DNA of 27,940 bases from a virus: positions 1-27,940 of the IMG/VR virus record IMGVR_UViG_3300023174_000533. The stretch is one strand, 5' to 3'. The position numbers and the translations under genes were made by a program. A model generated the notes under the pieces. That model had not been told where the DNA came from. It worked only from the letters and a program-made list of their open reading frames with translations, and did not search any database. Position 1 is the stretch's first letter; each line of letters begins with the position of its first letter. Positions 23,772 to 27,940 of this stretch are shown here, piece by piece.

Positions 23772-23787
23772 TTAGTCCAACAATTAG

Positions 23788-23815
23788 GGGAGTCATTAAT
23801 TTGGCTCCCTTTTTT
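23788..23815 (+). terminator. Rho-independent terminator
   Basis: GGGAGTCA (23788-23795), loop of 6, TGGCTCCC (23802-23809; one G-U pair), then a run of six T. It lies 16 bases after the stop of the surface-protein gene and closes that cassette. It is the best classical terminator in the window. Confidence 0.85.
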
Positions 23816-23875: not shown

Positions 23876-26014
23876 TTGAATAAACTCTTGCGTATATCTA
23901 CAGTTATTTTACTTGCTTTTGGATGGCTATTAATATCCCCACAAGATGCTCACTCTGACGATCCCTTAACAGTAGCAGCAAAACAAATTGAAAACCTCAA
24001 TAGCGCAGTAGATAAATTAGACTATAAAGATGGTCTAATAAACCTAATTGATATAGCAGAGAATAAGTTTATGTATGCTAAAAATCTACGGGATGTCAGA
24101 GACCTAGCAATTAAAAATTATGATGATGCAGTAGATGTAGAAGCCCTAGCACTGGAAGCAAAAGATCTTGCCCAGTCTAATGTAGATGGGCAAACAGCAA
24201 CAGTAGCCACTGCCATAACAAATAAGAATAATGCTAAAGATGCTCTTGATTTAGCCAACATTAATCTATCAACTGCTCAGCAAGCATTAAGTGGCGCAAG
24301 TGGCCCTGGTTTAAGATATGATGTCTACAGTTTGATTAGAGTTAATGGACAAGCAGCCACAGATCAACTACTATGTAGTGGCACATGGAATTCTAATTAT
24401 ATGAATTTACCTGTTTGTGGTAATAGATATGAAAACTTTATAGTTAAGTTTACTGGAAAAATAACAGTACCGTCATGGTTTACATCAACAAAATTTGCAG
24501 GATACACAGATGATGGTTTTAAAATGTATGTTAATGGAAACCTTGCTATAAATAACTGGCGTGAGCAGGGAGCAACATGGAGTGCATATTCTCCAATATA
24601 CGATGTAACTGAAGAAAAAGCATTAAATGTAGAGATATGGTGGTACAACGGTGGAGGGCCTGGATCCTACCATCTTGGCTGGGCTATTCCAGGAGGATGG
24701 ACTGGCGCAGGATGTGACTACGCTGGAGATCCAAGGGTCTGGGGACAAAACTTTAGTTGTAATCTAAATACATTTTCTTCTGGATCTGGAGCAAGTGCAA
24801 CACAGACTGCAGATTATCAAGCAGCATTAAGTGCAAAGAATGCAGCACAGCAAGAATATAATGACAAACTAAATGTATATAATCAAGAAGTTGCAACACT
24901 AAATTCATATAACCAAGACTTAACTAATAAGACATCTGAGTATGAAAATGCTGTTAATAATACAGAAGATGCTTTATATGAAAAAAATAATTCTATATCT
25001 AATTTAAATAACGCAATCCTTGATGTCAATAGTGCAATTAATGACGCATGGCGTTACTATGATGAGCAATCACAACGAGAAATTCAAAGAGCAATTGCAC
25101 AAGCAGCAGCCAACGCAGTAGCAAACCAACCTACACCAGAGCCAAAGCCTACTGTTGAACCAGAAAAACCAAAGCCTTCTGCACCACCAACAGAAAAACC
25201 TGAGCCAAAACCAACTAATAATACTGCCACAGAAGAACCAGGTCCAAAGCCAACACAGCCAGGCCCAAAGCCTACAGAGCCTGGACCTAAGCCAGAACCA
25301 ACAGACAAGCCAAATCCAGAGCCTACAGATAAGCCAAAGCCAGAAGAGCCTAAGCCTACATCTGCCCCAAGTCCTGAACCAAAGCCAGGGCCTACTCCAG
25401 AGCCTTCTGTAGAGCCTTCCCAAGAACCTAAACCACTTCCAAGACCAGACTTTAAGCCAGCAGAAAACATTGATCCAGTAATCAAGGATGCAGCATTAGC
25501 AGCACTTATCCCACAAAAGGGTACAGGAAATGCAGAAGATTTATCTGGTGTTATTGCAAACCTTACAAGCAAGGATAATAAATTAGTTAAACTTTCTGTA
25601 GAGCAAACAGCAGCAGTAAGTCAAACTCTTAAATCTCTTACTCAAGAAGCCAAGGCAGAAGTAGCAGAAAACCTTGGTATTTCACCAGCAGAAGTTACAA
25701 AGGTTGCAGAGGCGATGAAGTCAAACCCTGCAGTAGCAGCAGCGTTTGTTGAGTTTGCAGAAAGAGCAGGGGATGCAGGAGATACCCCAATGCCATTTAC
25801 ATTAGCAGATGCAACAACAGAAGTACAAACAGAAGCATTTTTAGCAGACCCACTTGGAGCAGTTTTTGCGGTGGACCCAGTAGAACTTCTATCTAATTTC
25901 TTTGAGTTAGGTATGGATATGACAGACGATCAGAGAGAGAAAGCGCAAGAAGTAATTGTCCCAGTGGTCATTGCATCACAAATTGCAGGGGCAATGATAA
26001 GGAGGAACAAATGA
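23876..26014 (+). CDS. Secreted PA14-domain surface protein with Pro-rich stalk
   Basis: I start it at TTG 23876 (712 residues): AGGAGAGA lies 8-10 bases upstream and the TTG gives a compact signal peptide (NKLLRISTVILLAFGWLLIS, then PQDAHS). An in-frame ATG at 23858 lacks a ribosome site and sits 4 bases after the -10 box. Order: signal peptide; helical coiled coil 30-140; PA14-like beta domain about 142-300 (FAGYTDDGFKMYVNGNLAIN, then EIWWYNGGG and SYHLGWAIPGG) with four Cys that could form disulfides; second coiled coil 305-410; PKP/PEP repeat stalk 418-520; helical domain; hydrophobic VIVPVVIASQIAGAM then RRNK at the C-terminus, a possible membrane anchor. PA14 domains commonly bind carbohydrates. 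It is probably displayed on the infected cell. It could alternatively aid lysis, but I see no catalytic motif. Confidence 0.8.
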   Translation: MNKLLRISTVILLAFGWLLISPQDAHSDDPLTVAAKQIENLNSAVDKLDYKDGLINLIDIAENKFMYAKNLRDVRDLAIKNYDDAVDVEALALEAKDLAQSNVDGQTATVATAITNKNNAKDALDLANINLSTAQQALSGASGPGLRYDVYSLIRVNGQAATDQLLCSGTWNSNYMNLPVCGNRYENFIVKFTGKITVPSWFTSTKFAGYTDDGFKMYVNGNLAINNWREQGATWSAYSPIYDVTEEKALNVEIWWYNGGGPGSYHLGWAIPGGWTGAGCDYAGDPRVWGQNFSCNLNTFSSGSGASATQTADYQAALSAKNAAQQEYNDKLNVYNQEVATLNSYNQDLTNKTSEYENAVNNTEDALYEKNNSISNLNNAILDVNSAINDAWRYYDEQSQREIQRAIAQAAANAVANQPTPEPKPTVEPEKPKPSAPPTEKPEPKPTNNTATEEPGPKPTQPGPKPTEPGPKPEPTDKPNPEPTDKPKPEEPKPTSAPSPEPKPGPTPEPSVEPSQEPKPLPRPDFKPAENIDPVIKDAALAALIPQKGTGNAEDLSGVIANLTSKDNKLVKLSVEQTAAVSQTLKSLTQEAKAEVAENLGISPAEVTKVAEAMKSNPAVAAAFVEFAERAGDAGDTPMPFTLADATTEVQTEAFLADPLGAVFAVDPVELLSNFFELGMDMTDDQREKAQEVIVPVVIASQIAGAMIRRNK
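25131..25436 (+). repeat. Proline-rich degenerate tandem repeat region
   Basis: About 300 bases coding for repeated PEPKPT, PGPKPTEP and PTDKPNPEPT units. The DNA is a degenerate repeat of CCAAAGCC- and CCAGAGCCT-type words. The encoded polyproline-like stalk resembles wall-spanning segments of Gram-positive surface proteins. Confidence 0.75.
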
Positions 26015-26238
26015 AAATAATCAATAAAGCCATCAACCTGGTAGGCAAAATGCTCAAGGGATTAATTAAATGGTTTAAAGATGCAGGAATGGAATTAATT
26101 GCACAAGCATTTACCCTCCTTGGCTTCTTTATCGCATGGCTAACTTTAACGGGATCAGCAAGAGACATTGTTGGAATTGCAGTACTTGCAACAACAGTTA
26201 TTTGGCTAATTACAATCCCGCTTAGAAAGGAGAAATAA
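26011..26238 (+). CDS. Small membrane protein, holin-like candidate
   Basis: 75 residues, starting in an ATGA overlap with the PA14 gene. An amphipathic basic N-terminus (MKIINKAINLVGKMLKGLIK) is followed by two predicted membrane segments (about 29-48 and 51-70, LIAQAFTLLGFFIAWLTLTG and IVGIAVLATTVIWLITIPL) and an RKEK tail. Size, topology and the neighbouring membrane protein suggest a holin or antiholin pair. No endolysin gene lies in the window, so the lysis role is by inference only. Confidence 0.65.
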   Translation: MKIINKAINLVGKMLKGLIKWFKDAGMELIAQAFTLLGFFIAWLTLTGSARDIVGIAVLATTVIWLITIPLRKEK

Positions 26239-26239
26239 A

Positions 26240-26524
26240 ATGACAACTAAAAAAGTAGCAGAACCCCCAAAGAAAGAGCACCCACAGAAAGCAATAACAA
26301 ATATCTTAATGAGAATTCTTGCTGTATTTGCAGCATCTGGTCTATCAGTTTTAGGAGCAGGAGCCGTAGTAGGAATTGAAACTGTACAGGCAGTAATGCT
26401 TGCAGGACTATTAGGAGTAGCAACAGTTATTGAAAGACTGGCAAGGGCTTTTTTGGACGATGGAAGGCTATCATTAGCAGAAATAAATGATGCCTTTAAA
26501 ACGGTAGATAAAAAGGCTAATTAG
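26240..26524 (+). CDS. Putative holin
   Basis: 94 residues with strong AGGAG before the ATG. A charged N-terminus is followed by two hydrophobic segments (about 24-45, ILMRILAVFAASGLSVLGAG; and 50-68, VQAVMLAGLLGVATVIE), then LARAFLDDGRLSLAEINDAF, an acidic EF-hand-like tail found in phage holins of actinophage type. It is one base downstream of the first membrane protein, so the two are probably made together. Holins open the inner membrane for lysis. The tail motif makes this the better holin candidate of the two. Confidence 0.7.
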   Translation: MTTKKVAEPPKKEHPQKAITNILMRILAVFAASGLSVLGAGAVVGIETVQAVMLAGLLGVATVIERLARAFLDDGRLSLAEINDAFKTVDKKAN

Positions 26525-26540
26525 TCATATTTAACCTTGC

Positions 26541-26570
26541 TTGACAGCCCTCTCCAGTCAATGGTATACT
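26541..26570 (+). promoter_or_regulatory. Sigma70-type promoter of the Ntn peptidase gene
   Basis: TTGACA at 26541-26546, 18 bases, TATACT at 26565-26570 in GGTATACTT with TG ahead (extended -10). The start should be near 26577, in the loop of the hairpin at 26548-26593. It belongs to the GGTATACTT family with the sites at 8956 and 27109. Confidence 0.7.
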
Positions 26571-26598
26571 TGAAATCTACCATTTGGAGAGGGTTTTT
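26548..26598 (+). terminator. Terminator-like hairpin that also buries the ribosome site
   Basis: CCCTCTCCA (26548-26556) pairs with TGGAGAGGG (26585-26593), and AATGGTA (26560-26566) with TACCATT (26578-26584), with a 3-base bulge and an 11-base loop. T5 follows at once. The 3' arm contains GGAGAGG, the ribosome site of ATG 26601. Read-through RNA from the holin gene can fold; RNA from the internal promoter lacks the 5' arm. Confidence 0.75.
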
Positions 26599-26600
26599 GC

Positions 26601-27128
26601 ATGACAATTATTGCTGTCGTAAGACAAGATGAAACAGTTCATATGGCTGGTGACAGAGGTGCATCAACAGAAGACTCTATCTTAGTATTAAAGGCTCCAA
26701 AAGTATTTAAAATTGGTCCTTATCTTTTTGGTTATGCAGGAACAATGGATGGAGAAAGAATTCGTCATAATTTTAAACCACCTGTACCAAAGCCAAATGC
26801 TAATTTAGATAAGTTTATGTATACTGAATTTCTTGTTGCACTTAGAAATTTTTATGAAACTTGGTGGGTAGATATATCAAAAGAATCTGATTTTGGTATG
26901 CTTATTGCAATTAAAGGAAGAGTCTTTGAACATAACGTAGTTGATATGTCTTTAACAGAATACCAAGAAGATTATCTTGCAATGGGATCAGGATCTGATT
27001 TTGCACTTGGTTCTTTATGGACAACTCAAAATCAAAAAAATGGTAAAAGAAGAGCACAATTAGCAGTAGAAGCAGCCATAAAATATTCAACATCCTGTAT
27101 TGGACCAGTTGACGTATTAAGTATTTAG
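26601..27128 (+). CDS. HslV/proteasome-like Ntn-hydrolase peptidase
   Basis: 175 residues. After removal of Met1 the protein begins TIIAVVRQD, as HslV begins TTIVSVRRN, and the residues align without gaps: Thr1 nucleophile, Asp17 (MAGDRGAS) and Lys33 (LKAPKVFKI) are all in HslV register. YLFGYAGTMDGERI matches the HslV AGFAG segment, and YLAMGSGSDFALGSL the conserved IGSGG block with Ser129. AQLAVEAAIKYSTSCIGPV matches the last helix and strand. I therefore read it as an active-site-competent proteasome/HslV-family threonine peptidase. No HslU or other AAA+ partner is encoded here, so it may use a host unfoldase, act alone, or be a relative with another substrate. Hsp20 lies 267 bases downstream. 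Confidence 0.85.
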   Translation: MTIIAVVRQDETVHMAGDRGASTEDSILVLKAPKVFKIGPYLFGYAGTMDGERIRHNFKPPVPKPNANLDKFMYTEFLVALRNFYETWWVDISKESDFGMLIAIKGRVFEHNVVDMSLTEYQEDYLAMGSGSDFALGSLWTTQNQKNGKRRAQLAVEAAIKYSTSCIGPVDVLSI

Positions 27129-27137
27129 GGGTATACT
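27109..27137 (+). promoter_or_regulatory. Promoter producing an apparently leaderless mRNA
   Basis: TTGACG at 27109-27114, 17 bases, TATACT at 27132-27137 in GGTATACTT. Only 6 bases separate the -10 box from the ATG at 27144, so transcription should begin at or next to the A of the start codon. No ribosome site is present. The promoter overlaps the end of the peptidase gene. Confidence 0.65.
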
Positions 27138-27143
27138 TATAAT

Positions 27144-27335
27144 ATGAATGAAGAAGTATCAATAGAAGAGCAAGAGTTTGGAATTTGGATTACAAACGGC
27201 ATTGAAAGAGGTTGGATTACAGAACCTTATTGTCATACCCATGATGGTGGAACTCAATATATGAGTGAAGAAGAGATTCAAGAATGGGAAGATGGCGGAG
27301 ATCCCTGTGAGCACGTTGTAAGACTTATGATATAA
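27144..27335 (+). CDS. Small acidic His/Cys protein
   Basis: 63 residues, strongly acidic. WITNGIERGWITEPYCHTHD, then MSEEEIQEWEDGGDPCEHVV: the spacing C29-x-H31-x-H/D and C55-x-H57 could hold a zinc ion. Such short proteins occur in other actinophages, but I know of no function. It is read from an apparently leaderless mRNA and lies between the peptidase and Hsp20, so it may belong to the proteostasis cluster, perhaps as an adaptor; this is a guess from position. Confidence 0.65.
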   Translation: MNEEVSIEEQEFGIWITNGIERGWITEPYCHTHDGGTQYMSEEEIQEWEDGGDPCEHVVRLMI

Positions 27336-27336
27336 T
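27328..27336 (+). promoter_or_regulatory. Extended -10 promoter TGATATAAT before Hsp20
   Basis: TG-A-TATAAT overlaps the stop of the acidic-protein gene. The start near 27343 would give a leader of about 53 bases with a small CCTG/CAGG hairpin and AAAGGGGA before the ATG at 27396. No good -35 is seen. Confidence 0.45.
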
Positions 27337-27395
27337 TATTATGTACCTGCCGTCAGGGGGTATAAATTAACTTATTCGCTTGAAAGGGGAATAAA

Positions 27396-27821
27396 ATGGT
27401 AACATCATATACATATAACGGATCTTTTGGAAATTTTTTCAATGATCCATTTTTTATCGGTTTTGACAAAATGTTTGACCGATTAACAAACACAACAAAT
27501 CAACAATCTGGATTTCCTCCATATAATGTTCGCAAGGTAGACGAAGATACATTCGTTGTTGAACTTGCAGTAGCAGGTTTTAATAAACAGGCTATTGAAA
27601 TTACAGAGCATGATGGAGTTCTTACCATTAAGGGTGAGCGTCCAGAAGATGCTGAAGAATATATTCACAAGGGAATTGCAGGTAGAAAATTTACTCGCAC
27701 ATTTACGCTTGCAGAGTATATGTATGTTGATAGTGCTGATCTTAATGATGGAATGCTTTATGTTGTTGTAAAGCGTGATATTCCAGAAGAGAAAAAGCCA
27801 AAAACAATCAAAGTAAAGTAG
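27396..27821 (+). CDS. Small heat-shock protein, Hsp20/IbpA-like
   Basis: 141 residues. The N-terminus is FF-rich (GNFFNDPFFIGFDKMFDRL), as in IbpA-type proteins. The alpha-crystallin domain (about 43-130) contains YNVRKVDEDTFVVELAVAGF, then ITEHDGVLTIKGER, GIAGRKFTRTFTLAEYM and LNDGMLYVVVKRDIPE. The C-terminal TIKVK supplies the I-x-I/V anchor. Such chaperones hold unfolded proteins and occur in cyanophages and some other phages. The residues for oligomer formation are all present, so it is likely functional. It follows the Ntn peptidase and a small acidic gene. Ribosome site AAAGGGGA. Confidence 0.93.
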   Translation: MVTSYTYNGSFGNFFNDPFFIGFDKMFDRLTNTTNQQSGFPPYNVRKVDEDTFVVELAVAGFNKQAIEITEHDGVLTIKGERPEDAEEYIHKGIAGRKFTRTFTLAEYMYVDSADLNDGMLYVVVKRDIPEEKKPKTIKVK

Positions 27822-27827
27822 TATAAT
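27822..27827 (+). promoter_or_regulatory. -10 candidate for the structured RNA
   Basis: TATAAT directly after the hsp20 stop, 7-8 bases before the start of the inverted-repeat RNA. There is no good -35 or TG extension, so this is weak alone; it gains weight from its place just ahead of the stem. Confidence 0.35.
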
Positions 27828-27833
27828 AGAATA

Positions 27834-27916
27834 GTCCCCACACAGGACCTTAGTGATGGATTAGTTACCCATTTATAATGACCGTGGCCTACGTGCCTGA
27901 ATCACCTGTGTGGGGC
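27834..27916 (+). ncRNA. Candidate structured RNA (about 80 nt)
   Basis: CCCCACACAGG (27836-27846) and CCTGTGTGGGG (27905-27915) form an 11-bp perfect closing stem. A second helix TGAT/ATCA (27854-27857 with 27901-27904) stacks on it, leaving a 7-base bulge on the 5' side. Inside are possible short hairpins (ATGG/CCAT; CGT/ACG or GGC/GCC). It has no open frame, no tRNA features and only CTTTC after the stem, so a simple terminator is not convincing. It may be a free RNA or a leader element for the next gene outside the window. The fold is by eye. Confidence 0.4.
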
Positions 27917-27928
27917 TTTCAATTGTTC

Positions 27929-27937
27929 TGATATAAT
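27929..27937 (+). promoter_or_regulatory. Extended -10 promoter TGATATAAT at window end
   Basis: TG-A-TATAAT immediately before the window end, identical to the boxes at 23845 and 27328. It probably reads into the next gene, perhaps the portal or head module. The downstream start is not visible. Confidence 0.4.
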
Positions 27938-27940
27938 TAT

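Follow-up and report, generated by a model that had tools for sequence, protein, structure and literature searches.

The window analyzed here is the whole of a 27.9-kb stretch (27,940 nucleotides) that makes up one IMG/VR virus record. Between positions 26240 and 27128, it contains a junction of two genes at which a putative promoter, a hairpin, and a ribosome-binding site share sequence. The features, all on the plus strand, are as follows.

26240 to 26524, plus strand: gene for a holin-like membrane protein of 94 amino acids, the last gene of the upstream block (PHROG 26427)
26541 to 26546, plus strand: -35 box TTGACA, outside the 5' arm of the hairpin save for its last base
26546 to 26566, plus strand: 5' arm of the hairpin (26546-26556 and 26560-26566, with a bulge at 26557-26559), lying in the promoter spacer
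26565 to 26570, plus strand: -10 box TATACT, spanning the inner end of the 5' arm and the loop (26567-26577)
26577, plus strand: predicted transcription start, about 7 nt past the -10 box, placed from the promoter match
26578 to 26595, plus strand: 3' arm of the hairpin, from the fold
26586 to 26592, plus strand: Shine-Dalgarno sequence GGAGAGG, within the 3' arm
26594 to 26598, plus strand: T5 tract in the sequence, a terminator-like tail between the ribosome site and the start codon
26601 to 27128, plus strand: gene for an HslV/proteasome-beta-like (Ntn hydrolase) peptidase of 175 amino acids (PHROG 1040, PF00227)

The family of the upstream gene, PHROG 26427, carries the label "nuclease." Its product has two hydrophobic stretches, and in two distant relatives (loci L241 and L244) a CHAP-type lysin reading frame lies directly behind the gene, so that a holin suits it better than a nuclease. 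The downstream product matches PHROG 1040 with an E value of 7e-23 and Pfam PF00227 with an E value of 4.5e-4, which is narrowly short of the cutoff. Residues T2 and K34 of the peptidase are invariant in its alignment (A2), and an Hsp20 gene follows downstream.

The relatives of the window are metagenomic phages of 100 to 119 kb. A WhiB-like protein scored above the cutoff in 13 of 14 of their records, which points to actinobacterial hosts, and the lake-dwelling actinobacterial phages that carry the element form a large group. A search of a phage collection returned no close isolate (best protein identity, 33%), and a scan of a genome collection found no prophage relative, with one weak unrelated match only. 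The isolated Nanopelagicales phages have a size of 39 kb (PMC10202952) and are at most possible relatives of the present phages.

The putative promoter reads TTGACA-18-TATACT, with TG preceding the -10 box, and is the best promoter match (11/12) within positions 24000 to 27940. The hairpin consists of 18 pairs, a 3-nt bulge, and an 11-nt loop; a preliminary description of this DNA had recognized the interrupted stem, although it gave its length as 16 bp. The arrangement described there, in which a hairpin encloses the promoter, holds the ribosome site in its 3' arm, and has T5 behind it and the -10 box across its 5' arm and loop, agrees with both fold and sequence. Within the region from 26541 to 26603, the hairpin has a predicted folding energy of -24.6 kcal/mol (z = -4.1), a stability equaled by no shuffled sequence. 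The hairpin ranks first among 5576 sliding 60-nt segments of the window, and the peptidase start region is the most structured of 23 start regions. RNA derived from upstream would be the only RNA with both arms, and RNA starting about 7 nt past the -10 box would contain the 3' arm alone, as had been proposed. The folding energies suggested as a check on this, -22.0 kcal/mol (z = -4.9) for 26548-26601 versus -1.0 kcal/mol for 26577-26601, differ in the expected direction. The first two T residues of the T5 tract are still able to pair with the base of the stem. A simple terminator scanner did not list the hairpin because its loop limit is 8 nt, and Rfam at the gathering score gave no family match in the window.

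The distribution of the element was followed through 52 IMG/VR relatives from a search with the peptidase and through 295 loci from searches with the holin-like protein, 291 of which were long enough for the hairpin to be scored. A hairpin around the -10 box is present at 190 of the 190 holin-peptidase junctions in IMG/VR and at 214 of the 291 holin loci overall, yielding 113 distinct hairpin cores in 34 clusters (below 88% similarity); the TTGAC of the -35 box is retained in 108 of 111 distinct relatives. Among the 52 peptidase relatives, the fold is kept with differing sequence behind the holin-like gene and is absent behind another gene. The preliminary description had treated the element as the peptidase's own, and this view did not hold: judged from these sequences, the element is a feature of the boundary that follows the holin-like gene and not of the peptidase, since it tracks the upstream gene at every holin-peptidase junction and is absent where the peptidase lies behind other genes. 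Loss of pairing with the peptidase gene kept, which had been named as grounds for rejection, does occur, but only where the upstream neighbor has changed.

Three natural exchanges of neighboring genes illustrate this dependence. The peptidases of L036 and L041 are 98% identical, and the latter lies behind another gene and is without the hairpin; on the same contig, a hairpin around TACAAT lies behind the holin (L274) and leads into that other gene. The peptidases of L009 and L014 are 90% identical, and in L009 the promoter is still there along with the sequence of the 3' arm, whereas the 5' arm is missing. The holin end of L009 bears an unrelated hairpin with a TATAAT box and the ribosome site of the next gene, the stem of which extends beyond the start codon to TTTTT. 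In genome G001, two genes separate holin and peptidase. The first of these, which has only a weak methyltransferase match, has its ribosome site masked by a new hairpin. Of 89 start regions ranked by structure, its own comes first (-28.5) and that of the peptidase, which is open, comes 70th (-5.1). Thus, where other genes stand behind the holin, the hairpin persists and is rebuilt with the ribosome site of the new gene. The same promoter behind another upstream gene folds only to -6 to -13, and where a CHAP lysin lies upstream of the peptidase, the promoter is present and the hairpin is absent, indicating that the peptidase is not everywhere in need of such control.

For the 111 distinct members whose start could be identified, unfolding the segment from the ribosome site to the start codon is predicted to cost 18.4 +/- 2.8 kcal/mol in the long RNA versus 5.4 +/- 1.6 kcal/mol in a short RNA starting after the loop, the smallest difference being 6.5 kcal/mol. 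In the long RNA, the Shine-Dalgarno sequence is predicted to be completely paired, with an unpaired probability below 0.05 in 95/111 distinct relatives; in the short RNA, about half of it is predicted to be open. The ribosome site lies within the stem in about 108 of 113 cases. In many members, the stem passes the T-tract, and the TTGACA of the -35 box pairs with TGTCA at the start codon. Masking is nevertheless not universal, because in three distant lineages (L240, L253, and L255) the hairpin surrounds the -10 box and the ribosome site lies outside it.

The T-tract, measured in the spacer between the ribosome site and the start codon, varies more. The T content of this spacer is 0.57 in relatives with the hairpin versus 0.25 in relatives without it, and the window itself has a GC-rich stem with an immediate U-rich tract (T5). 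A run of at least three T residues occurs in 95 of 111 distinct relatives and one of at least four in 39 of 111; some tails read CTCTGTC, and the L217 group, L131, and L090 are without any T-tract. The lack of a tract in the L217 group and L090 means that termination is not universal, and since masking is more uniform than a good U-tract, termination is probably partial. Of the two outcomes put forward earlier for read-through RNA, termination or a hidden ribosome site, the latter is well supported by the predicted opening costs and the former more weakly by the T runs; masking is probably the main effect, with termination as an added and variable one.

The same observations bear on a different reading, namely, that the hairpin is mainly the intrinsic terminator of the upstream block, that its overlap with the promoter and ribosome site stems from genome compactness, and that masking is a by-product. 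Such an explanation accounts for the enrichment of T-rich tails with the hairpin, for the frequent runs of at least three T residues, for L240 and L255, which keep the hairpin and T-tail with the ribosome site outside, and for the L009 stem that runs beyond the start codon to TTTTT, as well as for a hairpin that stays at the block end whatever gene comes next. It is less easily reconciled with the minority of members having four T residues or more, with the CTCTGTC tails and the tractless L217, L131, and L090 lineages, with the clean T6 terminator that the same phages have elsewhere (positions 23786-23811 of the window), and with a stem that so regularly takes in the ribosome site, and we regard it as unlikely.

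The check on covariation of the two arms gave a strongly positive result among loci that share the upstream gene. When arms were swapped between clusters, 33 in all, the mean energy rose from -27.6 kcal/mol (native) to -16.5 kcal/mol (swapped), and few or no swaps matched the native stability in nearly every cluster. In a plain MAFFT alignment of eight members, which was not fitted to the structure, 92% of cells are paired and four pairs have double changes. In a covariance-model alignment of 39 members, 12/12 lower-stem pairs show double (compensatory) changes, 92.8% of cells are paired versus 44 to 52% in slid versions, and double-change cells number 112 versus 27.7 in shuffles and 10 to 19 in slid versions; this alignment is fitted to the structure, which makes the arm-swap test the cleaner one. 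Applied to 40 diverse members aligned with MAFFT, RNAalifold gave no consensus structure because the 3' arms are out of register in that alignment.

These data also weigh on the idea that the palindrome is a protein binding site, an operator over the promoter, or a DNA cruciform regulating the promoter. A palindrome over the -35 and -10 boxes is in the usual position of an operator, and a cruciform would be compatible with covariation. However, an operator would keep its sequence, whereas the arms vary freely across the 34 clusters with pairing kept, and the strand asymmetry of the T-tail and ribosome site, both one-sided, suits RNA; we consider either form very improbable. That the hairpin is functionless, its pairing being an accidental or inherited consequence of the promoter and ribosome-site sequences, is refuted as far as sequence goes: the TATAC of the -10 box does pair with GTATA and accounts for part of the upper stem, but the covarying part is the lower stem, outside the promoter boxes (12/12 pairs), and the same promoter behind another upstream gene folds only weakly.

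The reading that we prefer, with a probability of roughly 70%, is that of an insulator behind the holin-like gene with the promoter of the next unit nested in it, such that read-through RNA is masked and partly stopped and RNA from the nested promoter is open. It builds on the position of the element, its fold, the coevolution of its arms, its dependence on the upstream neighbor, and the predicted difference in accessibility. The logic of the preliminary description finds support in large part, although a strict dependence of the peptidase on its own promoter, as proposed there, would go further than these results do. A polymerase arriving from the long upstream block would transcribe both arms, and the hairpin would form. 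A fraction of these polymerases would probably halt at its T-rich tail; in the RNA of those that continue, the ribosome site of the next gene, and often its start codon too, would be locked in the stem. A polymerase initiating at the nested host-type promoter would begin just past the loop and make the 3' arm only, giving an mRNA with a short leader and an open ribosome site. The activity of this promoter, a consensus match only, along with its start site, the degree of termination, repression in the cell, and timing, is what we infer from the sequence. About 60 bases would thereby be shared by a promoter, a terminator-like hairpin, and a translation switch, which is a compact natural design.

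As to timing, the same-strand block directly upstream measures about 65 kb in relatives and contains structural and replication genes. Three whole relatives show hardly any consensus host-type promoters within this block, and such promoters reappear at the junction and beyond; the small intergenic space within the block in itself lowers the count there. No protein with sigma-70 region 2 was found in 14 relatives. The upstream block may be transcribed late and the nested promoter be early or constitutive; in that case, the hairpin would shield an early or constitutive gene from late read-through.

The closest known system is that of T4 gene e (lysozyme), shared by soc and 49, in which RNA initiated upstream forms a hairpin masking the ribosome site. 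Transcripts from a promoter within the 5' strand region lack the 5' arm and are translated well, with a reported 100-fold difference; gene e, a late gene, is thus protected from early read-through (PMC3014915). The parallel, already drawn in the preliminary description, is apt: in both systems a stable hairpin holds the ribosome site paired in its 3' arm, and the promoter is so placed that its RNA would lack the 5' arm. T4 gene e, however, combines nested promoters of the phage late type (TATAAATA) with upstream RNA that is early, whereas the present element has a sigma-70/sigma-A consensus and upstream genes that look late, so that with a host-type nested promoter the order would be the reverse. 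The present element also differs in its usual T-rich tail and its hosts, and there is no gene homology. Promoter, hairpin, ribosome site, and start are arranged in the same way upstream of the unrelated genes I-TevI, I-TevII, I-TevIII, and segB of T4 and mobE of Aeh1; those hairpins are tied to homing endonuclease genes (PMC2988022), unlike the present one, which is tied to the upstream gene. By analogy, its mode of action would be that of T4 e, soc, 49, and I-TevI and of Aeh1 mobE. Among actinophages, the extended start-associated sequences of Cluster K mycobacteriophages are inverted repeats just upstream of ribosome sites (PMC3203893). The start-associated sequences of that cluster are conserved 17-bp repeats (GGGATAGGAGCCC) at many genes per genome (PMC3203893), whereas the present element has one strong copy per genome, with its pairing conserved and its sequence free, and falls outside that class. 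Searching the literature for promoters that lie within terminators turned up nothing nearer than T4, and the present setting (actinophages, a host-type nested promoter, a T-tail, dependence on the upstream gene, and one copy per genome) was not found described in the literature searched.

A more specific form of the insulator reading, which we put forward tentatively and at somewhat less than even odds, is that of a dedicated boundary element tolerating mobile genes. The hairpin would end a promoter-poor block and be rebuilt to enclose the ribosome site of any gene that follows; late read-through would be cut short and left untranslated, the inner host-type promoter would serve the next unit, and the -35 box would have a second role in many members as the pairing partner of the start codon. 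More generally, the element would extend control of the kind known from T4-like phages to abundant, uncultured actinophages. The more than 100 natural variants of one element, in which evolution has varied pairing, T-tract, and ribosome-site masking independently, form a ready test set for which block matters, termination or masking.

Other structured or promoter-like sites were seen in the window and its relatives. A second promoter-in-hairpin lies in genome G004 at 70466-70540 (locus L188), reading TTGACA..TATACT with -26 to -29 kcal/mol; its ribosome site, AGGAGG, is free and lies behind the hairpin. In G001, a strongly structured start is present at position 1815 on the minus strand (locus L173), reading CATTCCCCTGGGC-TTGACA-AAGCCTGGGGGTGTGGGACGTG with TTGACA in the loop. 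The T6 intrinsic terminator of the window at 23786-23811 (GGGGAGTC..GGCTCCCTTTTTT), located between a 386-amino-acid gene and a PA14-domain gene, is conserved in many relatives. At 27109-27144, TTGACG-17-TATACT is followed by an ATG 7 nt past the -10 box and resembles the start of a leaderless gene; a similar arrangement, TTGACA..TATACTTATAATATG, occurs in the relative G013. Behind the Hsp20 gene, an intergenic stretch of about 100 nt (27830-27925), closed by CCCCACACAGG/CCTGTGTGGGG and CTTTC, has a folding energy of -32.8 (z = -2.8) and no Rfam match; with 80 to 99% identity across more than 15 relatives, it is a candidate structured RNA or unusual terminator.
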